Source: Prevotella sp. (GTDB lineage: Bacteria; Bacteroidota; Bacteroidia; Bacteroidales; Bacteroidaceae). Taken from it: a stretch of 64,000 nucleotides of DNA. A program made the position numbers and the translations under genes. Shown in pieces: positions 25,681-47,048 of this stretch (its first letter is position 1; every line of letters begins with the position of its first letter). The stretch is taken from positions 83,660-147,659 of the forward strand of contig JAFPWS010000059.1 of NCBI GenBank assembly GCA_017412705.1. The letters are read 5' to 3'. The notes under the pieces are model-generated. The model was given only the letters and a program-made list of their open reading frames with translations, did no database searches and was not told where the DNA came from.

Positions 25681-26793
25681 ATGACAGGAATCTACATACA
25701 TATACCCTTTTGCAAGAGCCGTTGTATCTATTGCGGATTCTACTCCACCACAGGGTTGGAGTTGCGCCAGCGATATGTCGATGCGGTATGTAGAGAGATG
25801 GAAATGAGAAGCCTCCCCCCACCCCCCTCCAGAAAGAGGGGGAGCATCGAAACCATCTATTTTGGTGGCGGCACGCCCAGTCAGCTAACGGGCGACCAGC
25901 TGCGCCAGCTTTTCCATTATATATACAAGGTATATGGCAACGAGGCCGAGGAAGTCACCATCGAGTGCAATCCCGACGACGTGACGGATGCGTTTGCCGC
26001 TGCGCTGTCACATTTACCCGTCAACCGAGTCTCGATGGGTGTCCAGACCTTCGATGACCAGCGCCTGCGGTTCCTACATCGCCGCCATACGGCTGCCCAA
26101 GTGCCACAGGCTATCCAAAGGCTAAGGGATGCCGGCATCCAGAACATCAGCATCGATCTGATGTATGGCTTCCCCGATGAGACGTTGGATGACTGGCGGC
26201 GCGACATCAAGGCGGCATTGGCTCTCGAAGTAGAGCATATCTCGGCCTACTGCCTGATGATTGAAGAGGGAACCCCACTCTACCAGATGGGAGTGGCTGC
26301 CGCCGACGAGGAAACGGAGCGTGCGATGTACGAACTGCTGACAGACAAGCTGACAGCAGCAGGCTATGAGCACTACGAGATTTCGAACTTCGCCCGTCCC
26401 GGTTACCGTTCGCGCCACAATAGCAGCTACTGGCACGACGTGCCATATATAGGTCTGGGGGCTGCCGCTCACTCTTACGATGGCAACAGCAGAAGCTGGA
26501 ATGTGAGCGATATTCACCAATACATCGAGGCCATTGAGCATGGCAAGCTGCCTTCTGAACGGGAGCTGTTGGATGGCGACACCCGCTATAACGACCGCAT
26601 CACTGTTGCCCTGCGCACCAGCGACGGGCTGGACCTTGCCTCACTTTCCGAGCAACATCGCTACTACTGCCTTAAGGAGGCACAACACTTCATCGACGAC
26701 GGACTGTTAAGGATGGACGACAACCATCTGGTGCTCACCCGCAAGGGCCTCTTTGTCAGCGACATGGTGATGAGCGGACTGATGCTCGTCTGA
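25681..26793 (+). CDS. hemW: Radical SAM heme chaperone HemW (coproporphyrinogen dehydrogenase-like)
   Basis: 370 residues from the ATG at 25681; the longer frame crosses the promoter and the EF-G2 start. Radical SAM motif CKSRCIYCGF (C-x3-C-x2-C) at residues 10-19, FGGGTPSQL, YGFPDET and a C-terminal HemW domain (LRTSDGLDL) are present. HemW proteins are heme chaperones rather than true HemN enzymes. Residues 44-56 (LPPPPSRKRGSIE) come from a palindromic element inserted at 25810-25847, in the loop just before the GGGTP strand. Confidence 0.93.
   Translation: MTGIYIHIPFCKSRCIYCGFYSTTGLELRQRYVDAVCREMEMRSLPPPPSRKRGSIETIYFGGGTPSQLTGDQLRQLFHYIYKVYGNEAEEVTIECNPDDVTDAFAAALSHLPVNRVSMGVQTFDDQRLRFLHRRHTAAQVPQAIQRLRDAGIQNISIDLMYGFPDETLDDWRRDIKAALALEVEHISAYCLMIEEGTPLYQMGVAAADEETERAMYELLTDKLTAAGYEHYEISNFARPGYRSRHNSSYWHDVPYIGLGAAAHSYDGNSRSWNVSDIHQYIEAIEHGKLPSERELLDGDTRYNDRITVALRTSDGLDLASLSEQHRYYCLKEAQHFIDDGLLRMDDNHLVLTRKGLFVSDMVMSGLMLV
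25810..25847 (+). repeat. In-frame G/C-rich palindromic element in hemW
   Basis: Blocks GCCTCCCCCCACCCCCCTCC and GAAAGAGGGGGAG match the left half of the long copies in GH31 and GH127 with a shorter middle. It encodes a proline/arginine-rich loop and keeps the frame. Confidence 0.8.
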
Positions 26794-26844: not shown

Positions 26845-29712
26845 ATGAATACTTGGAAACCGAATCTCGAAGAAACCAAAGAGCGATATATCAACTGGTG
26901 GAACCATAAAGGTATCGTCCTCAATATGTGGGAGCACTTCCAAGATGGCGTCAAGCCTCATGCCGACGTGCCAGTCCCAAAGCCCTACCGCGATCTGAAC
27001 CAGCGCTGGTTCGACCCAGAATGGCGGGCAGAATACCTGGATTGGTACGTCGCCCACTCCAGCATGATGGCCGATATGCTGCCTGTCGCCAACACACAAC
27101 TTGGCCCTGGCTCATTGGCTGCCATCCTCGGCGGTGTGTTCGAAGGGGGCGAGGACACCATCTGGATTCACCCCGACCCCAACTATACGGACGACATCAA
27201 GTTCGACCCTGACCATCCCAACTACAAGTTGCATAAGGACCTGCTCCGTGCCTGCAAGAAAAAGGCGCAGGGCCACTACTACGTTGGCATGCCCGACCTG
27301 ATGGAAGGTATGGACGTACTGGCTGCCATAAAAGGTACTGACAAGGTGCTGCTCGACACGGTGATGCAGCCTGAGGTGCTGGAACGGCAGATGCAGCAGA
27401 TTAACGACATCTACTTCCGCGTGTTCGACGAGCTGTACGACATCATCCGTGAGGGCGACGAGATGGCTTTCTGCTATTTCTCGTCGTGGGCGCCAGGCAA
27501 GATGTCGAAGTTGCAGAGTGACATCTCGACGATGATTAGCATAGACGACTACCGCCGCTTCGTGCAGCCGTTTATCCGCGAACAGTGCCAGAAGATTGAC
27601 TATACGCTCTACCACCTTGACGGTGTGGGAGCCATGCACCATCTGGACGCACTGTTGGAAATCGAGGAACTGAATGCTATCCAATGGACGCCGGGAGTGG
27701 GTGAGCCGCAGGGCGGCAGTCCGAAATGGTACGACCTCTATAAAAAGATTCTCTCTCATGGCAAGAGCATCATGGCGTGCTGGGTGACATTGGACGAGCT
27801 ACGCCCACTGCTCGACAACATTGGAGGCGACGGCGTACATCTGGAGATGGACTTCCACAACGAACGTGAGGTGGAACAAGCCATGCGCATCATCGAGGAG
27901 TACCAGCAGGCCAGACAGACCAGTCCCCTACTAACCTCCCCCCACAGGGGAGGAAATCAAGACGAAGCCGACCGCGAAGTAGAGGAAATCATTCGTCGTG
28001 TGGAGAGCGATACCCTATCAAAACAAAAAGCATCCCCTTCGGGGGGACGTTTGGAGGAGGTTTCCAAGCTCCTTGTCCTCGACGGAGCAATGGGTACCAT
28101 GATACAGCAGTACGGATTGCGCGACGAGGATTTCCGGGGGGCTCGCTTTGCCAACCATCCTAAAGAGCTGAAAGGGTGCAACGATGTGCTCTCGCTGACC
28201 TGTCCTGTGGTCATTCGTGACATCCACCGCAAATACTTGGCTGCTGGTGCCGATATCATCGAGACCAACACCTTCAACGCCCAGCGTATCTCGATGGGCG
28301 ACTATGGTTTGCAAGACTATTGTAGGGAAATCAACCTCGCTGCCGCCCGCATCGCCCGCCAGTGCGCCGACGAATTCAGTTCGTCGGAAAAGCCTCGTTA
28401 TGTGGTGGGCAGCATAGGACCTACGAGTCGCACGACATCGGTAGCTACCAGTGGCGAACCGCTCGATAAGGAGCTGCTTCGTCAAGCCTACGCAGAACAG
28501 ATACAGGCCTTGGCTGACGGCGGTGTTGATGCCCTGCTGATTGAAACCATCTTTGATGTAGAGAATGCCCGCATCGCCATCGAGGTAGCACAGCAGGTGG
28601 CTCCTTCCTTGCCTGTCATGCTCAGCTTCAATGTGACAACGGCTGACGGCCACAACATGCTCGGACAGGATGTCTGCCAATTCATCAACACGCTGGGCAC
28701 CAAGCCCTACTCCGTAGGTATCAACTGCGTAGCCGATGTCGCCAAGATGACACCACTGGTTTGCCGATTGGCACAATTCGGCACCAAGGTGAGTCTCTAT
28801 CCTAATGCTGGCATGCCTGATGGCAACGGACATTATGGCAAGACACCTGAGAGTCTGTTGGCTGATGTATGGCCCCTGTTAGAGAACCATCGTCTGAACA
28901 TCATCGGAGGATGCTGTGGCACCACCGACAAGCACATCGCCCTGATAGCCAAGGCCATTGAGCCTGTGTCAGGAATACGGCTCTCGCCGCTGAACGATGA
29001 GGTGAGGGGTGAGAGGTTAGAGGTTAGAGCACACACTCAAGCGCAGACTGCTACGCAGCAAGAGGCACCAACAGGCAATGCTGAGGAACGTCTTTTCCAA
29101 GCCATTCTGAATGGCAAGAGCGACGAGGCAGCAGCAGCGACAAGGGAGGCCATTGCCCAGCAGATAGCACCACAGGATTTGATTAACGGACAGATGATTC
29201 GTGCGATGGGTGAGGTGGGTCAGCGATTCCAGGACGGTAAGGCTTTCGTGCCCCAGCTGCTGATGGCAGGGCGTGCGATGAAAGCAGCTCTCGAACTGCT
29301 GAAGCCCATGCTCGCTGGTGCCGCATCAACCTCATTAGGGAAAGTAGTCATCGGCACCGTCAAGGGTGACCTGCACGACATTGGCAAGAACCTCGTAGCC
29401 TCGATGCTCGAAGGTTGTGGATTCGAGGTCATCAACATTGGCATCGATGTCTCTGCCGACACCTTCATCGAAGAGGTCAAGAAGAACCAGCCCGACATCC
29501 TGTGCATGTCAGCCCTACTCACGACGACCATGGGTTATATGAAGGAAGTGATTGACGCCCTTGAAAAGGCTGGTATCCGCGACCAGGTTAAGGTCATGGT
29601 AGGTGGTGCTCCTGTCACCCAAGGCTTTGCCGACGAGATTGGTGCCGACGGCTATAGCGACAATGCCAACTCAGCCGTCACCGTTGCCAAGCAACTCCTT
29701 GGCAAACTATAA
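26845..29712 (+). CDS. Fusion: URO-D methyltransferase / homocysteine S-methyltransferase / corrinoid protein
   Basis: 955 residues. Residues 1-350 are a URO-D-fold domain of the MtaA/CmuA methyltransferase type. Residues about 408-700 are a MetH-like homocysteine methyltransferase barrel (starts LLVLDGAMGTMIQ; zinc Cys at 628, 690 and 691). Residues about 745-830 are the helical corrinoid cap and 835-955 the B12-binding Rossmann domain, with D842-x-H844-x-x-G847 (GDLHDIGKN) for base-off cobalamin. The pterin-binding and reactivation domains of full MetH are missing; a reactivation-like protein is encoded just downstream on the other strand. Repeat DNA sits exactly at both joints: palindromic elements at residues 360-371 and 395-407, and a heptamer tract near 719-728. 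A methyl group from an unknown donor probably goes to cobalamin and then homocysteine (inference). Confidence 0.88.
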   Translation: MNTWKPNLEETKERYINWWNHKGIVLNMWEHFQDGVKPHADVPVPKPYRDLNQRWFDPEWRAEYLDWYVAHSSMMADMLPVANTQLGPGSLAAILGGVFEGGEDTIWIHPDPNYTDDIKFDPDHPNYKLHKDLLRACKKKAQGHYYVGMPDLMEGMDVLAAIKGTDKVLLDTVMQPEVLERQMQQINDIYFRVFDELYDIIREGDEMAFCYFSSWAPGKMSKLQSDISTMISIDDYRRFVQPFIREQCQKIDYTLYHLDGVGAMHHLDALLEIEELNAIQWTPGVGEPQGGSPKWYDLYKKILSHGKSIMACWVTLDELRPLLDNIGGDGVHLEMDFHNEREVEQAMRIIEEYQQARQTSPLLTSPHRGGNQDEADREVEEIIRRVESDTLSKQKASPSGGRLEEVSKLLVLDGAMGTMIQQYGLRDEDFRGARFANHPKELKGCNDVLSLTCPVVIRDIHRKYLAAGADIIETNTFNAQRISMGDYGLQDYCREINLAAARIARQCADEFSSSEKPRYVVGSIGPTSRTTSVATSGEPLDKELLRQAYAEQIQALADGGVDALLIETIFDVENARIAIEVAQQVAPSLPVMLSFNVTTADGHNMLGQDVCQFINTLGTKPYSVGINCVADVAKMTPLVCRLAQFGTKVSLYPNAGMPDGNGHYGKTPESLLADVWPLLENHRLNIIGGCCGTTDKHIALIAKAIEPVSGIRLSPLNDEVRGERLEVRAHTQAQTATQQEAPTGNAEERLFQAILNGKSDEAAAATREAIAQQIAPQDLINGQMIRAMGEVGQRFQDGKAFVPQLLMAGRAMKAALELLKPMLAGAASTSLGKVVIGTVKGDLHDIGKNLVASMLEGCGFEVINIGIDVSADTFIEEVKKNQPDILCMSALLTTTMGYMKEVIDALEKAGIRDQVKVMVGGAPVTQGFADEIGADGYSDNANSAVTVAKQLLGKL
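27922..27956 (+). repeat. In-frame palindromic element, left-type half, in the methyltransferase fusion
   Basis: AGTCCCCTACTAACCTCCCC then CCACAGGGGAGG. It is the inverted partner of the right-type half at 28028-28064; 71 bases of ordinary coding sequence lie between them. Confidence 0.8.
28028..28064 (+). repeat. In-frame palindromic element, right-type half, in the methyltransferase fusion
   Basis: AAGCATCCCCTTCGGGGGG then ACGTTTGGAGGAGG. It ends a few codons before the first conserved residue of the homocysteine methyltransferase domain. Confidence 0.8.
28999..29026 (+). repeat. Heptamer tract GAGGTGA/GGGGTGA/GAGGTTA/GAGGTTA
   Basis: Four 7-base units lie in frame, in the linker between the homocysteine and corrinoid domains. 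On the opposite strand they resemble the TCTAACC/TCTTACC heptamers in the TonB receptor gene. Confidence 0.75.
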
Positions 29713-31483: not shown

Positions 31484-33016
31484 ATGAAGCGACTATTAAC
31501 CACACTGCTGTTGTTTTCCACCTTATACGCCTCTGCCGCTGAAATCATCGTCAAAGAGGGCGAAAGCATCCACGATGCCCTCCGGCAGGCCCGCGAGTGG
31601 CGACGTACTGGCGACCCTCGCTGCGAGGGGGGTATCACCATCACGCTGCAAGCAGGACACTACTATATGCAGGAGCCTCTCTTCCTGCGGCCTGAGGACA
31701 GCGGAACGAAGGAGTCACCGCTCGTCATCCGTGGTGAGCAGGGGGCCGTTATCTGTGGCGACCCAATGCAGCAGCATACACAGCTTTGGCCGAAGGTAGG
31801 GATGGAGCGGATGATTGACTTCAATACAACGACACGCACCATCACCATCCCCACCCCACCCCAATCAGTGCTTCGAGATTTTGTCTCGAAGAAGACCCCG
31901 CTCGAAATGCTGGTACATCAGCGCTGGGCCATCGCCATTCTGAGAGTGAAGGACATCCGTGTGGACAACGGTTCAGCCGTCGTGTCGTTCATGGAGCCTG
32001 AGAGCCGACTTGAGTTTGAACACCCCTGGCCGCAGCCCGTCATCGGAGGCGAAAAGGGCAACAGTTCCTTCCTGCTTCGCACCACCGAACAGCGCGACGG
32101 CATTGAGCAACTCGTCATCGTCGATGGTGCCAACTACGTATCGTTCGAAGGACTGACCTTCGAGAACACTTGTTGGAACCGACCGCTGCACAAAGGCCAC
32201 GTGACGCTACAGGGCGGATTTCCGCTGATTGATGCCTACAAGCTGGCGGTCCCTGGTTTACCCTGGGACGAAAACCTCGAAAATCAGGCATGGATAGAGC
32301 GCCCTGTCAGCGCCGTCGTAATTCGTAATACCTCGCAGGTAGACTTCCGGCGCTGCATATTCAGCAACCTGGCCGGCACGGCACTCGACTACGAGAGCAT
32401 TGACGGAGGCAGCATCGACCACTGCACCTTTGAGAACATTGGCGGCACAGCAATTATGGCAGGTTCATTTGCCGAGACTCCACTGGAGGTACATCAGCCA
32501 TACAAGAATCTGGCAGAAAAGTGCCGTGGGCTCAACATAATCAAGAACACCATACGCAATGCCACCAAAGAAGACTGGGGCGCTGTCGCCATCAGCTGTG
32601 GCTATGTGCGCGACTGCACCATCGCCAGCAACAACGTATCAACTGTCAACTACAGCGGCATCTGCATCGGCTGGGGGTGGACACCACACTATACAGGGAT
32701 GGAGAACAACCACATCATCGACAACAAGGTAAGCGACTATGCCCGACAACTGTACGACGCAGGAGGTATCTACACCCTGTCGAACCAGCCTAAGTCCACC
32801 ATTCGCGACAACGAAATCAGCCAGCCCTACCCTGCCCCCTATGCCACCAACACCCGTGCTTTCTGCATCTATCTGGATGCACGTACCGACGGGTTTACGA
32901 TAGAGAACAACAAGACCAGTGTGGTCGGAGGTTCTGCCTCCGACACCCTCCGCCTCATCCGCCGCGACGAGATAGGCGACAATCACCCCGGCCCCAACCT
33001 CATATTCAAACAATGA
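31484..33016 (+). CDS. Secreted right-handed beta-helix glycosidase, GH141-like
   Basis: 510 residues with a cleavable signal peptide (cut after YASAA). The whole protein is a parallel beta-helix: repeated short strands with Asn ladders (FENTCWNRPLHKGHV, IFSNLAGTALDY, NEISQPYP). It shares a diagnostic core with the protein at 45249-47048: DWGAVAISCGYV, GICIGWGWTP and GIYTLSNQPKS. These features match GH141, which includes fucosidases and xylanases acting on pectin RG-II or xylan. The family call is from remembered pattern and is moderately sure. The stop overlaps the GH31 start (ATGA), so translation is coupled. Confidence 0.78.
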   Translation: MKRLLTTLLLFSTLYASAAEIIVKEGESIHDALRQAREWRRTGDPRCEGGITITLQAGHYYMQEPLFLRPEDSGTKESPLVIRGEQGAVICGDPMQQHTQLWPKVGMERMIDFNTTTRTITIPTPPQSVLRDFVSKKTPLEMLVHQRWAIAILRVKDIRVDNGSAVVSFMEPESRLEFEHPWPQPVIGGEKGNSSFLLRTTEQRDGIEQLVIVDGANYVSFEGLTFENTCWNRPLHKGHVTLQGGFPLIDAYKLAVPGLPWDENLENQAWIERPVSAVVIRNTSQVDFRRCIFSNLAGTALDYESIDGGSIDHCTFENIGGTAIMAGSFAETPLEVHQPYKNLAEKCRGLNIIKNTIRNATKEDWGAVAISCGYVRDCTIASNNVSTVNYSGICIGWGWTPHYTGMENNHIIDNKVSDYARQLYDAGGIYTLSNQPKSTIRDNEISQPYPAPYATNTRAFCIYLDARTDGFTIENNKTSVVGGSASDTLRLIRRDEIGDNHPGPNLIFKQ

Positions 33017-35901
33017 AACAAACCAACTATCATCTCTTCGACTTCATGGACTTTGATCTGGATTTACAGAAGGACGAAGCCCTTTGGAAGGCATACGCAC
33101 CCACGAAGATACAGGAGCGCGACGGTGACATCATCGTCACCATCCCCTACCAGAAACAACTGCACCAGGAGGACATGGCAGCTGACGAGCGTACGCCCCA
33201 ACAGAACTACAACCTCATCATCCGTGCTTACGACCCCAACATCGTCCGCCTGTTTACGACGATGGAAAGCCCCCTCCCGTCCTCCCCCCGAGGGGGAGAT
33301 TCTTTGAGCGAGGAGGATGACATGCTTCAGTTCTCGCCAGAGGTGAAGCGCCTTCCCCTAACCACTTCCACCAAAGGTGGAATCGTGGAAATCCGCAAAG
33401 CCTCCCCAACAGGAGGAGAACGGGAGGGGGTTCCCTCCCCCTCGGGGGGAGGTTCGGAGGGGGCTCTTGTAGCCGCCATCGACCTCAGCGAACCCGTCAT
33501 CGACTACTGGAGCGACCTGCAGCCGGCGCCCCAGCCGGCACCCTTTATCACTTTCTATCCCGATGGCGATACGGCAAAGGGCATCGCCCTGAGCGACGAC
33601 CACTTCTCGCCCCCCCGCTACGATGCGCTGCCCCTCGGTTTTGTCAGCCGAGGCAGTGCCTCGGACTTCGAGACGGAAAGGGCAACCATCAGCTTCAAGT
33701 GCGAGGCCGACGAGTGCTTCGTGGGTACCGGTGAGCGTTTCCGCAAGATGGATCTGAGCGGCCAGACTTTCCAATTGAAGAATCAGGACGGCCAGGGCGT
33801 CAACAACCGCCGCTGCTACAAGAACATCCCCTTTTATCTGAGCAGTCGCATGTACGGCTGTTTCTACCATACCTCCGACTACTGCAAGCTGTCGTTAGCC
33901 GACCATTCTACGCGCAGCGTGCAGTTCCTCAACGACCACGCCACGCTGGATGTTTTCCTCATCGGCGGCCAGAACCCCGAGGAAATCCTTCGCGGTTATC
34001 GCATGTTGACTGGTTTTCCGCAGATGCCACCACTTTGGTCGTTTGGCATCTGGATGAGTCGCATGACCTATTTCTCAGCTGATGAAGTGGATGACATCTG
34101 CGACCGTCTGCGTCGTGAGCACTACCCCTGCGATGTCATCCACCTGGATACGGGATGGTTCCGTACGGATTGGCTTTGCGAGTGGAAATTCAATCCTGAG
34201 CGATTCCCCGACCCAAAGGCGTTCATCCAGCGACTGGCCAAGAAGGGCTTTAAGGTAAGCCTGTGGCAGCTGCCTTACATCGCCTCCGGTGCTGAACAGA
34301 TTGACGAAGCCAAGGCCAACCACTACATCAGCCAGCCAAGCCCCCTCCAAACCTCCCCCCGTAGGGGAGGCTTACAGAAGCGTGACTACGACAATTACAA
34401 ATTGGCTCATCCAGATAGATACCAAATCCTAAAGGATTTTGCCAAGAACAACAAGAAAGAGCAAACAGAAGCAGAGAATGCTTTATGGCAACTTTTGAGA
34501 AGTCATTCGTTAGGCGAGAAATTCAGAAGGCAGCATGTTATTGGTGACTATATTGCAGACTTCGTTTGTCTGGCTTGTGAACTTGTTATTGAAATAGACG
34601 GTGGATATCATCAGGAGAAAAAGCAACAAGAAATTGATAAGATAAGAACAGAATATTTAGAATCGTTGGGATTTCGTGTCATCCGTTTTACGAACGAAGA
34701 AGTTCTTCAAGACATCGAATGCGTAAAGAAACAAATTCTCAACGCCATGTGTACCCCCTCTTCGGGAGGGGGTCAGGGGGAGGCTTCTTCTTCCAACTTC
34801 TCCGCCCTGGACTATGCAGGTACCATCGACTTTACCTACGACAAAGCCACCGACTGGTATAAGTACACGCTGCTGAAGCCCCTGTTGGAGATGGGTGTGA
34901 AGTGCATCAAGACCGACTTTGGCGAGAACATCCACATGGACCACCAGTACCACGCGATGGAGCCTGAGCGGCTGAACAACATCTACGCCCTGCTCTACCA
35001 ACGAGCCGCCTACGAGGTAACTAAAGAGGTAACAGGCGATGGCATCGTCTGGGCGCGTTCTGGCTGGGCAGGTTGTCAGCGCTATCCGCTGCACTGGGGT
35101 GGCGACAGCGAGTCGTCGTGGGCCGGCATGGCCGGTTCGCTGAAGGGCGGCCTGCACTTCGGACTCTCCGGCTTTGCCTTCTGGAGTCACGACGTGCCGG
35201 GCTTCCACTCGACGCCCAATTTCATGAACTCGCCCCTGCACGAGGATGTCTATGTCCGCTGGACGCAGTTTGGCGTCTTCTCCAGTCATATCCGCTACCA
35301 TGGCTCGTTCAAGCGCGAGCCTTGGCACTACCCTGGCATCGCCCCCATCGTCAAGCGTTGGTGGAAGCTGCGCTATCAGCTCATACCTTATATTATAGAG
35401 CAAGGCGAGCTTAGCTGCCAGAGCGGCTACCCCATGCTGCGTGCCCTCATCTTCCACCACCCGCACGACCGCCAATGCTGGCACATTGACGACGAATACT
35501 ACTTCGGCAGCGAGTTCCTCGTTTGTCCTGTCATGAACAGCGACAACCGCCGAGACATCTACCTGCCAAGCCCCAACCCAACCAGCCTCCCCCCGACCCC
35601 CTCCTGTAGAGGGGGAGAATCGACCGCGCAAAAAGCCTCCCCTACAGGGGGAGGTTTGGAGGGGGCTGGAGGTTCGGAGGGGGCAGACCTCTGGGTCAAC
35701 TTCTTCACAGGCGAGCGTCTGGAGGGTGGCCGCTGGTACTACAACGTGGAAGTTCCGCTCGACCAGATGCCTGTCTTCGTGCGTCCAGGCGCCCTCATCA
35801 AGCTGTATCCTGACGAGGTCGACTCTACCGACGATATGGACATGAATAAAGCTGTCACCATCGAAATAACTAAAGACTACAAAGGCTTCGAAATATCGTA
35901 A
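33013..35901 (+). CDS. GH31 alpha-xylosidase/glucosidase with an inserted DUF559 endonuclease domain
   Basis: 962 residues, far longer than usual GH31 enzymes because of insertions. GH31 landmarks are complete: WSFGIWMSRMTYF, LDTGWFRTDWLCEWKF, nucleophile Asp635 in KTDFGE (YicI-like, alpha-xylosidase side) and acid/base Asp698 in HWGGDSESSW. There is no signal peptide, so it probably acts in the cytoplasm on imported oligosaccharides. Insertions, all in frame: residues 87-155 (paired palindromic elements), 442-596 (palindrome, a DUF559 nuclease domain at about 455-580, palindrome) and 851-893 (one long element). The nuclease sits in the loop between the fourth barrel region and the nucleophile strand, where other GH31 enzymes have a variable loop. 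Whether the enzyme still folds is unknown. Confidence 0.9.
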   Translation: MKQTNYHLFDFMDFDLDLQKDEALWKAYAPTKIQERDGDIIVTIPYQKQLHQEDMAADERTPQQNYNLIIRAYDPNIVRLFTTMESPLPSSPRGGDSLSEEDDMLQFSPEVKRLPLTTSTKGGIVEIRKASPTGGEREGVPSPSGGGSEGALVAAIDLSEPVIDYWSDLQPAPQPAPFITFYPDGDTAKGIALSDDHFSPPRYDALPLGFVSRGSASDFETERATISFKCEADECFVGTGERFRKMDLSGQTFQLKNQDGQGVNNRRCYKNIPFYLSSRMYGCFYHTSDYCKLSLADHSTRSVQFLNDHATLDVFLIGGQNPEEILRGYRMLTGFPQMPPLWSFGIWMSRMTYFSADEVDDICDRLRREHYPCDVIHLDTGWFRTDWLCEWKFNPERFPDPKAFIQRLAKKGFKVSLWQLPYIASGAEQIDEAKANHYISQPSPLQTSPRRGGLQKRDYDNYKLAHPDRYQILKDFAKNNKKEQTEAENALWQLLRSHSLGEKFRRQHVIGDYIADFVCLACELVIEIDGGYHQEKKQQEIDKIRTEYLESLGFRVIRFTNEEVLQDIECVKKQILNAMCTPSSGGGQGEASSSNFSALDYAGTIDFTYDKATDWYKYTLLKPLLEMGVKCIKTDFGENIHMDHQYHAMEPERLNNIYALLYQRAAYEVTKEVTGDGIVWARSGWAGCQRYPLHWGGDSESSWAGMAGSLKGGLHFGLSGFAFWSHDVPGFHSTPNFMNSPLHEDVYVRWTQFGVFSSHIRYHGSFKREPWHYPGIAPIVKRWWKLRYQLIPYIIEQGELSCQSGYPMLRALIFHHPHDRQCWHIDDEYYFGSEFLVCPVMNSDNRRDIYLPSPNPTSLPPTPSCRGGESTAQKASPTGGGLEGAGGSEGADLWVNFFTGERLEGGRWYYNVEVPLDQMPVFVRPGALIKLYPDEVDSTDDMDMNKAVTIEITKDYKGFEIS
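33268..33467 (+). repeat. In-frame inverted pair of palindromic elements near the GH31 N-terminus
   Basis: The left-type half (AGCCCCCTCCCGTCCTCCCC, 33268-33300) and right-type half (AAAGCCTCCCCAACAGG... to GGAGGGGGCT, 33397-33467) flank about 95 bases of coding sequence, which include a small CACTTCCACCAAAGGTGG palindrome. They encode Ser/Pro/Gly-rich filler. Confidence 0.8.
34339..34375 (+). repeat. Left palindromic element flanking the DUF559 insert
   Basis: AGCCCCCTCCAAACCTCCCC then CCGTAGGGGAGGCTTAC. Its reverse complement matches the right-type half found in the long copies almost base for base. Confidence 0.85.
34376..34751 (+). mobile_element. DUF559 (Vsr-like) endonuclease domain embedded in the GH31 gene
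   Basis: About 125 codons, in frame with GH31 and open throughout. The protein reads YDNYKLAHPDRYQ, TEAENALWQLLRSHSLG, FRRQHVIGDYIADF and LVIEIDGGYH, then FRVIRFTNEEVL. This is the standard DUF559 core, an endonuclease fold of the Vsr/PD-(D/E)XK type, with the presumed catalytic residues (E of TEAEN, D of IADF, E and D of IEIDGGYH) all present. It has no internal ATG at its beginning, so it can only be made as part of the host protein or from a non-ATG start. The DNA is clearly AT-richer than the flanking GH31 sequence. It is bracketed by inverted palindromic elements. No intein splice motifs are present. Confidence 0.85.
34752..34788 (+). repeat. Right palindromic element flanking the DUF559 insert
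   Basis: ACCCCCTCTTCGGGAGGGGG hairpin followed by TCAGGGGGAGGCTTC. It ends just before GH31 similarity resumes (FSALDYAGTIDFT). Confidence 0.75.
35577..35684 (+). repeat. Long palindromic element near the GH31 C-terminus
   Basis: About 108 bases, nearly identical to the two 111-base copies in GH127. The left half (CCTCCCCCCGACCCCCTCC, TGTAGAGGGGGAG), a spacer (AATCGACCGCGCAAAA) and the right half (AGCCTCCCCTACAGGGGGAG, GTTTGGAGGGGGCTGG) form an inverted pair. In frame, residues about 855-890. Confidence 0.9.
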
Positions 35902-37508: not shown

Positions 37509-39773
37509 ATGAAAAGACTCCTCTTCCTATGTTTAGTCAGTTGCTGTGTCGCAGCAACAAACACAACAGCTAAAGGCCTCACCGACATGAGCCGTAGCAA
37601 GCAAGCCAAAATGCAGAACCTGCCGATGGGTGCCACCCGGTGGACGGGCGGTTTCTGGGGCGACCGCTTCCAGATGCTCTCCACAACAGGCATCTGGTCG
37701 ATGTGGGACACGTGGAACACGCCCTACGAGACCATTGACGCCCTCGGACTGCACGGCAGCCATGGCTTTGCCAATTTCCAGGTGGCAGCAGGCACGGTGA
37801 AGGGTAAGCACCACGGCCCTCCCTTCCACGACGGCGACATGTACAAGTGGCTCGAGGCCTGTGCCGCCGTCTATGCCGTGACGAAAGACCCGAAGCTCGA
37901 CGCCCTTATGGACCAGTTCATCGGGCAGGTAGCCTTGGCCCAGCGTGCCGACGGCTACATCCACACCCCCGTAAATATTGAGGAGCGGAACAGCCCCAGC
38001 CCAACCAGCCTCCCCCCGGCCCCCTCCTGTAGAGGGGGAGAATCGACCGCGCAAAAAGCCTCCCCTACAGGGGGAGGTTTGGAGGGGGCTGGAGGTTTGG
38101 AGGGGGCTGACAATGCTGCCGGCATTGAGATTGGCAAGGACCAAAAGCACGCCTTTGCCTCACGTCTGAACTTCGAGACCTACAACCTTGGCCACCTCAT
38201 GACGGCTGGCATCATCCACAAGCGTGCCACGGGCAAGACCACGCTCTTCGACTGTGGCAAGAAGGCTGCCGACTTCCTCTACAACTTCCTGACCAACGAC
38301 GCTGCCGAGTTGTCGCGCAATGCCATCTGTCCCTCGCACTACATGGGAGCTGCAGAGATGTACCGCGAGACGGGCGACGAGCGTTACCTGACGCTGGCCA
38401 AGGGTTTGATAGCCATCCGCGACAGCGTGACCAACGGCGAGGACCACAACCAGGACCGCCACAAGTTCCGCGACCAGTACGAGGCCATGGGACATGCCGT
38501 GCGTGCCAACTACCTCTACGCCGGTGTGGCCGACCTCTATGCCGAGACGGGCGAGGCACAGCTGATGAAGAACCTCGAAGCCATCTGGGACGACATCGTC
38601 AGCCATAAGATTTACATCATGGGCGGCTGCGGTGCGCTCTACGACGGCGTAAGCCCCGACGGCACCACCTACAACCAGCCCTCCATCCAGCAGATTCACC
38701 AGGCCTACGGACGCCAGTTCCAGCTGCCGCAGGAGGCTGCCCACAACGAGATATGCGCCCAGATAGGCATGCTGCTCTACTCTTGGCGCATGTTCCAGAC
38801 CACAGTAGACCCCAAGTACATCGACAACATCGAGAACGAGCTTTACAACGGCATTCTCTCGGGCATCTCGCTCGACGGCAAGGACTTCTTCTATACCGAG
38901 GCCCTGCGCCGCACCAAGGAGTTCCCCTACACCATGCGCTGGCCCAAGCACCGCCAGCGCTACATCACCTGCTTCTGCTGTCCGCCCAACACGCTGCGCA
39001 CGCTCTGCGAGGCACAGGAGTACGCCTACAGCATCAAGGGCGACACGCTGTGGGTGAACCTCTACGGACAGAACAAGCTGACGACCAAGGACCTCGAAGT
39101 GGAGCAGCAGACCGACTACCCGTGGGACGGCAAGATTACGCTCACCGTCAAGAAGGCCAAGACGCTGGCGAGCATCCGCATGCACATCCCCGGCTGGGCC
39201 ACTGACATGCAGCTGAAGCTGAACGGCCAGCCCATCCTGGCCGAAGACCTGCGCCAGCCCCGCAAGTGGAAGAAGGGCGACACCATAGAACTCGACCTGC
39301 CCATGAAGGCGCGTCTCGTCGAGGCCAACCCGCTGGTCGAGGAAGCCAAGAACCAGATTGCCGTCATGCGCGGACCTATCGTCTACTGCTTGGAAGGCCA
39401 GGACATTAGCCCAACCAGCCTCCCCCCGACCCCCTCCTGTAGAGGGGGAGAATCGACCGCGCAAAAAGCCTCCCCTACAGGGGGAGGTTTGGAGGGGGCT
39501 GGAGGTTTGGAGGGGGCTGTGCGCATCAACGACATCGCCATCCCTGCCGACGTGCAGTTCACCGAGAAGAAAATCACGATGGAAGGCCACGAGATGGTAG
39601 CCCTCGAAGCCACAGTGCCTGTCGTCAGCCAAGGCGCCTGGAGCAACAGCCAGCTCTATCGCGACCTGCGTCCCGTCACCAAGAAACAGGTGAAGATACG
39701 GCTCATCCCCTACTACGCCTGGGACAACCGGGGCATCGACGACATGTCACTCTGGCTCCCCCTGGCCCGGTAG
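37509..39773 (+). CDS. GH127 beta-L-arabinofuranosidase (DUF1680)
   Basis: 754 residues with a signal peptide (MKRLLFLCLVSCCVAATNT). The GH127 zinc-thiolate site can be read: E414 and C416 in HNEICAQIG, and C490-C491 in ITCFCCPPN; C491 corresponds to the Cys nucleophile of HypBA1. The barrel segment GGFWGDRFQML and RAKRATGKTT-like HKRATGKTTLFD also fit. It would release beta-L-arabinofuranose from arabinan or glycoprotein side chains. Two 111-base palindromic elements are inserted in frame at residues 164-200 and 634-670; they differ by one base and could recombine. Last gene of the operon from 31484; it ends 3 bases from the convergent GH43 stop. Confidence 0.92.
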   Translation: MKRLLFLCLVSCCVAATNTTAKGLTDMSRSKQAKMQNLPMGATRWTGGFWGDRFQMLSTTGIWSMWDTWNTPYETIDALGLHGSHGFANFQVAAGTVKGKHHGPPFHDGDMYKWLEACAAVYAVTKDPKLDALMDQFIGQVALAQRADGYIHTPVNIEERNSPSPTSLPPAPSCRGGESTAQKASPTGGGLEGAGGLEGADNAAGIEIGKDQKHAFASRLNFETYNLGHLMTAGIIHKRATGKTTLFDCGKKAADFLYNFLTNDAAELSRNAICPSHYMGAAEMYRETGDERYLTLAKGLIAIRDSVTNGEDHNQDRHKFRDQYEAMGHAVRANYLYAGVADLYAETGEAQLMKNLEAIWDDIVSHKIYIMGGCGALYDGVSPDGTTYNQPSIQQIHQAYGRQFQLPQEAAHNEICAQIGMLLYSWRMFQTTVDPKYIDNIENELYNGILSGISLDGKDFFYTEALRRTKEFPYTMRWPKHRQRYITCFCCPPNTLRTLCEAQEYAYSIKGDTLWVNLYGQNKLTTKDLEVEQQTDYPWDGKITLTVKKAKTLASIRMHIPGWATDMQLKLNGQPILAEDLRQPRKWKKGDTIELDLPMKARLVEANPLVEEAKNQIAVMRGPIVYCLEGQDISPTSLPPTPSCRGGESTAQKASPTGGGLEGAGGLEGAVRINDIAIPADVQFTEKKITMEGHEMVALEATVPVVSQGAWSNSQLYRDLRPVTKKQVKIRLIPYYAWDNRGIDDMSLWLPLAR
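37998..38108 (+). repeat. Long palindromic element, first copy in GH127
   Basis: 111 bases (37 codons), inverted-pair structure as at 35577-35684. It differs from the second GH127 copy by one base (CCGGCC versus CCGACC). Confidence 0.92.
39408..39518 (+). repeat. Long palindromic element, second copy in GH127
   Basis: 111 bases, in frame, same orientation as the copy at 37998. Recombination between the two would remove 1410 bases (470 codons), including the active site. Confidence 0.92.
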
Positions 39774-45248: not shown

Positions 45249-47048
45249 ATGAGACAGGTTTTTCTTCTGGTCAGTACTTTGTTCTGCCTGTTAGTGCAGG
45301 CGGCTGACATCCGCATCACGCCCGACTCGTCGCTGACGGACGCGGTGCGCAAGGCCCGTGAGATGCGGCGGTTGGGACAGGCCGCACGAGTGACCATCCA
45401 CCTGGAGCGCGGTGTCTACCGGCTGTACGAGCCGCTGCGCCTGCGCCCCGAGGACAGCGGGCTGAGCATCGTGGGCGAGGGGGCCGTCGTCAGCGGCGGC
45501 ATGAGCATCACTGGCTGGAAGCGGCAGGGCAGGCTCTTGGTGGCCGACGTGCCCGACTTCAACGGTCGTCCTGTGGACTTCCGGCAGCTGTGGGTAGGCT
45601 CCCTCCAGACCTCCCCCGGCAGGGGTGGCTTCCAGAAAGCGGTAAGGGCGCGCGACATTCCTGTGGGCGGCGCCAATGGTGACCCCTTCGAGCAGATGGC
45701 CCGCATACGCACCTACGACAAGAAGGGGCATGTGCTGTGGGTTCCCAAGAAAGCTGTGGAGAAAATACTGAAGGCGCCCTACGCCGAGATGGTGCTGCAC
45801 GAGATGTGGTGCACAAGCAACCTGCGCATCAAGAGCATCACGCCGGAAGGCGACTCTGCCGCCGTGCGCTTCCACGACCCGGAGGCGAGGCTGCAGTTCG
45901 AGCATCCGTGGCCCTCGCCCATGACGCCCGACACGGGACACCCGTCGCCCTTCTACCTGACCAACGCCATGGAGCTGTTGGACGAGCCCGGCGAGTGGTA
46001 CCACGACTGGCGCCAGCATAAGCTCTACTACATGCCGCGGCCGGAAGAGGCCTCCCTGCTTACGGAGGGACGGGGAGAGGCCGTAGTGCCCGTTCTGGAG
46101 ACGCTGGTGGAGTGTGTCGGCACGGCGGAGCACCCCGTGCGCGACATCTGCATCAAGGGTGTCACCTTCAGCCACACCACGTGGCTGCGCCCTTCGGAGA
46201 AAGGCCATGTGCCCCTGCAGGCCGGCATGTATTTGGTGGAGGCCTACAAGCTGCGCCCGCAGACAGACCGTCCGAACAACCACAAGCTGGACAACCAGGG
46301 ATGGTTGGGACGTGCCGCCGCGGCTGTGGTGCTGCGCCACACCGAGCATATCAATTTCAAGGACTGTCGCTTTGAGCATCTGGGTGGCTCTGGGCTGGAC
46401 TACGTGGAGGGGTGTCACGGCGGAACCGTGACAAACAGTACCTTCACCGACATCGCCATGAACGGCTACGTCTGCGGCTCGTTCTCGCCCGAGGGACTGG
46501 AGACCCACCTGCCCTACCAGCCCACCGACTTCCGCGAGGTGTGCACGGGGCAGCAGGTGAGCAACTGCGAGTTCTGCGACGTGACGAACGAGGACTGGGG
46601 CTGCGTGGCCATCTGTGCCGGCTACGTCAGCGGCATCAACATAGAGCATAACACCATCCACGACGTGTCGTACACGGGCATCTCATTAGGCTGGGGATGG
46701 AACCGCGACCTGGTGTGCATGAAGGACAACAGGGTGCATGCCAACCTCATCTACAACTACGCCCAGCACATGTACGACTGTGCCGGCATCTATACCCTCG
46801 GCAATCAGCCGGGCACCGTCATTTCAGAGAATGTGGTGCACGACATTGCCAAGCCCTCTTACGTGCACGACCCTAACCACTGGTTCTACCTCTACACCGA
46901 CGAGGGATCGAGCAATATCACCCTCAAGGACAACTGGACACCAGAGGAGAAATTCCTGAAGAATGCCAATGGTCCTGGCAACATCTGGGAGAACAACGGA
47001 CCGCAAGTAAACGAAAACATCAAACACCATGCAGGCATCACCAAATAG
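45249..47048 (+). CDS. Secreted right-handed beta-helix glycosidase, GH141-like (second copy)
   Basis: 599 residues from the ATG at 45249, which opens the signal peptide MRQVFLLVSTLFCLLVQA; an ATG at 45231 adds six residues. Beta-helix throughout, with the same core as the protein at 31484: DWGCVAICAGYV, GISLGWGWNRD and GIYTLGNQPGT. It is about 90 residues longer, partly because residues 117-129 (SLQTSPGRGGFQK) are a palindromic element at 45599-45634. Likely a pectin RG-II or xylan side-chain enzyme. Its end overlaps the rhamnosidase start by 20 bases, so the pair is translationally coupled. Confidence 0.78.
   Translation: MRQVFLLVSTLFCLLVQAADIRITPDSSLTDAVRKAREMRRLGQAARVTIHLERGVYRLYEPLRLRPEDSGLSIVGEGAVVSGGMSITGWKRQGRLLVADVPDFNGRPVDFRQLWVGSLQTSPGRGGFQKAVRARDIPVGGANGDPFEQMARIRTYDKKGHVLWVPKKAVEKILKAPYAEMVLHEMWCTSNLRIKSITPEGDSAAVRFHDPEARLQFEHPWPSPMTPDTGHPSPFYLTNAMELLDEPGEWYHDWRQHKLYYMPRPEEASLLTEGRGEAVVPVLETLVECVGTAEHPVRDICIKGVTFSHTTWLRPSEKGHVPLQAGMYLVEAYKLRPQTDRPNNHKLDNQGWLGRAAAAVVLRHTEHINFKDCRFEHLGGSGLDYVEGCHGGTVTNSTFTDIAMNGYVCGSFSPEGLETHLPYQPTDFREVCTGQQVSNCEFCDVTNEDWGCVAICAGYVSGINIEHNTIHDVSYTGISLGWGWNRDLVCMKDNRVHANLIYNYAQHMYDCAGIYTLGNQPGTVISENVVHDIAKPSYVHDPNHWFYLYTDEGSSNITLKDNWTPEEKFLKNANGPGNIWENNGPQVNENIKHHAGITK
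45599..45634 (+). repeat. In-frame palindromic element, left-type, in the second GH141-like gene
   Basis: CTCCCTCCAGACCTCCCCC then GGCAGGGGTGGCTTCCAG. It is most like the left half that precedes the DUF559 insert in GH31 and is a solitary half-element. Confidence 0.8.

Follow-up and report, generated by a model that had tools for sequence, protein, structure and literature searches.

What is a nuclease domain doing inside the open reading frame of another protein? The question is raised by a stretch of 64,000 nucleotides from Prevotella sp. (contig JAFPWS010000059.1), hereafter the window, in which a GH31 gene carries a domain of the large and uncharacterised DUF559 family. A preliminary description of this locus had proposed that the domain belongs to the autonomous form of a mobile element that inserts into coding DNA, leaves the frame open and ends in palindromes. 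Here, we confirm that an in-frame DUF559 lies between inverted palindromes inside the GH31 gene, and we follow the same arrangement through related genomes, where it recurs in unrelated genes and between genes. The proposed interpretation is, overall, partly supported.

A DUF559 nuclease domain lies in frame within the GH31 gene

The GH31 gene (33013..35901, forward strand, as are all features of the window given below) encodes 962 amino acids in one uninterrupted frame. Residues 473-578 of its product (34429..34746) match DUF559 (PF04480) with 117.2 bits against a cut-off of 20.6, and the GH31 barrel (PF01055) matches in two stretches, the better of which comprises residues 595-795. The nuclease is bounded by a left-type palindromic terminus at 34339..34373 and a right-type terminus at about 34753..34786 (palindrome I3, 34754-34785). 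Both are GC-rich and inverted, and each is complementary to another palindrome of the GH31 gene (97% and 91%, respectively). No in-frame ATG occurs between the left palindrome and DUF559, as the preliminary description had held; a TTG codon is present there and could serve the window nuclease as an unusual start.

In an alignment with ten GH31 orthologues (nine from the same genus and one from the same order), the nuclease insert falls in a variable loop and is missing from 10/10, as are the other three of the four in-frame inserts of this gene. Of these three, two are palindromic and belong to the N-terminal part; the third, a short element, belongs to the C-terminal part. A nuclease insert occupies the identical GH31 site in the uncultured Prevotellaceae RUG403 (locus L151). 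The window's own genome, rated 86% complete, yielded one DUF559 only.

Inverted palindromes flank the nuclease across loci

Among 16 nucleases of this kind, 19 alignment columns are invariant. The nuclease profile matches the solved structure 3hrl (E 2.5e-29) and also 3r3p, a mobile intron protein that we take to be I-Bth0305I (E 1.5e-7), which makes the domain kin to a homing endonuclease. For Caulobacter, a DUF559 protein has been reported to be a Vsr-like enzyme that underlies a DNA damage response (PMC12907096).

DUF559 was found in 177 of 299 genomes drawn from the window's genus. We worked with two samples of loci: 60 picked mostly by frame length or top ranking, which include the window copy (L110), and 80 named loci chosen by similarity, the nearest 80 of 578 confirmed relatives. 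The samples overlap partly, and 196 loci of all kinds reduced to 194 with a nuclease and 160 unique ones. Because loci were picked by frame length, rank or similarity, the shares of in-gene copies reported here are not rates.

The element is mostly about 430-700 bp long and ends in two inverted C-rich palindromes. Flanking inverted repeats exceeded the 95th percentile of in-locus controls at 53 of the 60 loci of the first sample (50 above the 99th; 750 controls) and at 71 of 79 in the second (64 above the 99th; 936 controls), from which a contig-edge locus had been left out. An arm-free test on 157 of the 160 loci (three were dropped for short flanks) gave the same picture: the left flank's best partner was the locus's own right flank in 57 cases (1 expected by chance), and the own right flank ranked within the best 5% in 121 (about 8 expected). 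Nuclease similarity also correlates with terminus similarity, including in pairs from different sites, both overall (r 0.236) and within the window's genus (r 0.198), with 0/999 permutations reaching either value; this can reflect co-adaptation, common descent or both.

A terminus design that avoids stop codons was rejected because composition explains arms open in all frames: 49 of 149 arms are open in six frames, compared with 31% of shuffled arms. At least five palindromes were found in 51 of 177 genomes with DUF559 vs 6 of 122 without (genome relatedness not corrected for), yet this positive association across genomes is unspecific, a reversed control pattern being enriched alike (mean 1.36 vs 0.23). 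A Y1 transposase as partner of the palindromes was rejected since Y1 loci bear other repeats and the element encodes DUF559 (25 measurable Y1 loci; 5 of 30 dropped as short). Within the genus, the Y1 loci L289, L291, L295 and L297 have strong inverted repeats of a different sequence type.

Outside Bacteroidota, similar C-rich palindromes flank stand-alone DUF559 genes in Sphingomonas (L362, 1477-1887, between sufB and sufC) and Pseudanabaena (L363). Of nine non-Bacteroidota loci tested, one of them a phage, five exceeded all local controls; the result is clear in L362 and L363 only, narrow in L359, and due to repeats of another kind in L357 and L360.

The element occupies unrelated host proteins as well as intergenic sites

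Hosts that carry DUF559 in frame include GH31, an ABC-F-type ATPase, the CCA-adding enzyme, RecG, IleRS, ValRS, LeuRS, MetH, UvrA, a Ham1 protein, a GlcNAc-2-epimerase, MazG, an aldehyde dehydrogenase/MaoC protein, a helicase and others, as judged from Pfam scans of 16 host frames and from their translations, several exact names being assigned by recognition. In the in-gene copies read, the frame is continuous from host through nuclease to host. Such copies are spread across Bacteroidota, isolates included (Flavobacterium difficile KDG-16, Maribacter luteus RZ05, Tamlana nanhaiensis FHC16 and Aequorivita todarodis KCTC 62141), so that binning errors cannot be their general cause.

In two genomes rated 99% complete (G037 and G054), the sole full LeuRS found bears the insert, and the enzyme presumably works with it. 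One LeuRS site holds the nuclease in L106, L108 and L195 and, by reading, a nuclease-free palindromic insert in L103. Besides its RecG copy, the A. todarodis genome (G327 C46; L318, L354) has a 1262-codon frame that matches LeuRS and holds DUF559.

No interrupted gene was assigned to 47 loci, from which we drew 20. Both flanks were recognised as different genes in 12, and one flank was without a nameable gene in the remaining 8. Pfam scans of 10 of these 20 loci, which have long forward open reading frames on both sides, returned different families across the element in 8; of the other two, L205 had no match on one side and L200 had an ETF domain on both (EtfB/EtfA by reading). Disruption of a gene out of frame was seen at none of the loci read, which is limited evidence. 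In several genomes of the genus (L111-L130), the element lies directly before gmk or ispF (names by reading), and its right palindrome is read into the start of the following gene. A phage or plasmid vector was rejected, all of the 3 phage and 40 plasmid records having less than 60% identity; Bacteroidota were absent among the 10 plasmid organism names listed, of 18.

The RecG site exists in filled, scarred and clean states

In RecG, the element sits between KLWxK and PPHILVM. This site is filled in 5 of 149 genomes of the F. difficile family (query genome included), all in frame. Reading 34 RecG loci gave 10 filled ones (some of them from the second sample), 22 clean ones, in which a 3-residue gap marks the site, and 2 with short scars; L275, in which the site was not found, was left out. 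The genus of A. todarodis (28 genomes) holds 6 filled RecG genes (query included), 5 scarred ones, defined as short gaps not beginning with N, 16 clean ones and 1 with an unreadable site, and again every filled allele is in frame. The scarred L327 is the sister of the filled L321 (Shimodaira-Hasegawa-like approximate likelihood ratio test, SH-aLRT, 99), and the scars of L327 and L330 each keep a single palindrome, which indicates that a solo palindrome can be what remains of a nuclease element after a deletion in frame. Carriers, scars and clean genes are interleaved within this genus (6 changes, at least 3 of them forced). No target-site duplication is evident at the RecG site among the alleles compared, which include no near-identical filled/clean pair.

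Nuclease lineages are tied to sites and conserved in sequence

On a nuclease tree that is poorly resolved (80 of 154 inner branches open; 2 of 160 rows dropped), site labels require 37 changes vs a shuffled mean of 71.7, and 0 of 200 shuffles were as low. All 10 RecG nucleases cluster together (SH-aLRT 90, not starred); the RecG hosts of this one cluster require 8 changes, at least 4 forced by starred branches. RecG hence combines two marks of homing, a site filled or empty among relatives and a nuclease lineage tied to it. The nucleases at the IleRS, LeuRS, ValRS, MetH and DegT sites each fall into more than one group, and a single site-tied lineage is accordingly not found there. Starred nuclease neighbours that reside in different genes (L100/L107 and L101/L102) point to moves to new genes.

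The ratio of nonsynonymous to synonymous substitution rates (dN/dS) is 0.060-0.086 for the embedded nuclease in five RecG pairs, and 0.032-0.098 for the host parts where these are unsaturated. It is 0.076 for the nuclease of the GH31 pair, with synonymous sites near saturation, and 0.026-0.27 for pairs outside host genes, the highest value coming from a near-identical pair. Saturated pairs were set aside, as were L181/L198 and L121/L240 (0.79 and 0.91), which have amino-acid identities of 0.96-0.99 and are probably misaligned. Judged by these ratios, the nuclease is under purifying selection.

The window also contains short nuclease-free elements

The remaining inserts of the GH31 gene noted above are a solo palindromic insert (33268..33298, SPLPSSPRGG), a double palindromic insert (33398..33465) and a short nuclease-free element (35568..35684). 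Two further copies of the latter lie in frame in a nearby GH127 gene (37509-39773), at 37993..38108 and 39408..39518. The three copies are about 110 bp long, nearly identical and read in one common frame as PTSLPPTPSCRGGESTAQKASPTGGGLEGAGG or nearly so; no other copies at different sites here look as if they had moved recently. Additional in-frame palindromes occur at 25816-25844 (radical SAM gene), 27924-27952 and 28032-28060 (both in a MetH-like gene) and 45599-45627 (GH141-like gene). The window genes thus share with Rickettsia palindromic elements (RPE) the trait of palindromic in-frame inserts in unrelated genes.

Discussion

With the anatomy of the element, its recurrence, its empty sites and its in-frame scars read directly from the sequences, we consider it probable, with moderate confidence, that this is a homing-type selfish element, in which a Vsr/EDxHD-like DUF559 nuclease between inverted C-rich palindromes is translated with its host and not spliced. 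This reading is favoured because nuclease lineages are tied to sites, carriers are scattered, the nuclease is under purifying selection and its kin include the nuclease of a mobile intron. The element either lies between two genes or occupies a variable loop of a host protein, where its frame is open from end to end. Translation would then add the nuclease to the host protein as a further domain, and the host would tolerate and keep the insert and still work. The nuclease may cut its own site where this is empty, or DNA that carries the palindromes, whereupon repair would copy the element in, as in homing. The palindromes would be the element's ends and might be bound or cut by the nuclease, new sites would be founded by rare off-target repair, and deletion of the nuclease would leave solo palindromes in frame. 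The broader proposition, that palindrome-flanked nucleases read through by their hosts constitute a new class of selfish element inside proteins, one that spreads when empty alleles are cut and whose palindromic in-frame scars give rise to short copies, has in our estimate an even chance of being right.

Several observations weigh against the homing-type reading. The two arms of the window copy score only 10.0 against each other, below the 95th percentile of controls (11.5), and those of L151 (10.5) are likewise under it; the window copy is a weak example within a strong class. Nuclease pairs with at least 80% nucleotide identity share flanks or locus in 15 of 16 cases, although several of these pairs come from RecG and from one rnh group, so that the 16 are not independent, and the right side of L159/L174 is not comparable. 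Nuclease and RecG distances correlate (r 0.69), the nuclease evolving about 1.4 times faster, which implies much vertical descent, and we found no excess of co-conversion beside the RecG site in the A. todarodis genus. The only near-identical copies seen at different sites are the short ones without a nuclease, and palindromes that fit the search pattern also occur in 34 of 122 genomes without a DUF559 match. From the sequence record, residence is long and jumps to new sites look rare, and horizontal entry cannot be fully separated from repeated loss.

The last two of these counterpoints are what one would expect if the palindromes resembled miniature inverted-repeat transposable elements or repetitive extragenic palindromic (REP) sequences moved in trans by another enzyme, with DUF559 as cargo caught between two of them, and the rarity of locus changes among nuclease copies fits this as well. 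We nevertheless regard such a passenger role as unlikely. Within an element the two flanks match each other, and their similarity follows that of the nuclease; Y1 transposase loci have inverted repeats in 10 of the 25 measurable cases, and these are by eye of a different sequence type. Genomes with at least five palindromes are also commoner where DUF559 is present, though unspecifically.

Co-divergence with RecG, purifying selection and the sharing of loci by near relatives are also compatible with a domesticated domain, that is, an old fusion useful to its host beside RecG, LeuRS and others that has descended vertically with many losses. This account appears less probable still: the hosts are unrelated and have no common task, carriers are as sparse as 5 in 149, carriers and scars are interleaved with clean genes in one genus, and the domain comes with palindromic termini and occurs between genes, too. 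It is highly improbable that the insert is an atypical intein or intron excised from the protein or the RNA, although its sites, like those of inteins, lie in conserved genes and its arms could form an RNA stem. Pfam scans of the 16 embedded hosts matched no intein domain (E up to 1e-4 or 1e-8, by scan), no group I/II ribozyme scored above the Rfam gathering score at 6 loci, and the frame is open across both termini. Scars and solo palindromes, moreover, stay in frame, a constraint that splicing would not impose.

Returning to the homing-type reading, the claims of the preliminary description fared unevenly. That the palindromes are the termini of a module describes the usual case, and the frame is indeed left open; neither outcome that would have refuted it arose, since aligned orthologues lack the insert and DUF559 elsewhere is associated with palindromes. 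Insertion into coding DNA holds for in-frame copies in unrelated genes and has to be qualified by the many copies between genes, which show that the element has other homes as well. As for an autonomous mobile form, short palindromic inserts are relatives of the element, and the RecG scars show one route to them, by deletion; the nuclease as autonomous driver is not proven. Empty sites exist, and the element seems to reach new ones slowly.

On the usual view, inteins and introns survive in essential genes because splicing removes them. If the broader proposition above is true, this element does the inteins' job without splicing, across Bacteroidota and perhaps in other phyla, and an extra nuclease domain is tolerated even in a cell's sole leucyl-tRNA synthetase. 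Here, also in cultured bacteria, essential genes keep a nuclease from a homing-related family within their reading frame, and filled, scarred and clean alleles of one site coexist in one genus. Both the life of selfish DNA in essential proteins without splicing and the entry of new domains and loops into proteins thereby become testable. The element is also a possible source of the palindromic, low-complexity inserts in the window proteins, and suggests a likely function for part of the DUF559 family.

Comparison with known systems

Searches of open PubMed Central papers returned no description of DUF559 with palindromes or of Bacteroidota inserts of this kind; subscription papers and preprints fall mostly outside this scope. 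The nearest known systems each share a part with the element, and in none was an in-frame nuclease seen between palindromes. In the system of REP sequences and their associated tyrosine transposases (RAYT), G/C-rich palindromes stand in inverted pairs around a Y1 transposase gene and occur as solo copies besides. The inverted G/C-rich pairs around the gene of a DNA-processing enzyme and the solo copies are features in common; the enzyme, however, is Y1_Tnp instead of DUF559, and the repeats at the Y1 loci studied here are of another sequence type. RPE are likewise palindromic inserts that lie in frame in unrelated protein genes, but they measure about 150 bp and belong to another phylum, and the word endonuclease does not occur in a review of them (PMC10969869).

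The ShiLan domain of phage methylases resembles the element in that it is an insert without detectable splicing, leaves the host frame open, includes a homing-type nuclease and has empty alleles; it differs in that its HNH nuclease is encoded in another frame with its own GTG start and the host gene is that of a phage (PMC11855218). The same paper, in whose text neither palindrom nor inverted repeat appears, mentions a lone LAGLIDADG nuclease insert in that methylase. Kin in nuclease sequence are the EDxHD or Vsr-like homing endonucleases typified by I-Bth0305I, which also form lineages tied to one site (PMC3943268). Compared with that type, the element was found without a group I intron or intein, has palindromic termini and a frame continuous with its host, and consists of a core of about 107 residues where the EDxHD type has added DNA-binding regions. 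Since homing is not proven and precedents exist for the parts, we regard the element as a variant of the homing-type selfish element and not as something wholly new; the way in which selfish DNA would here live inside working proteins is apparently undescribed.

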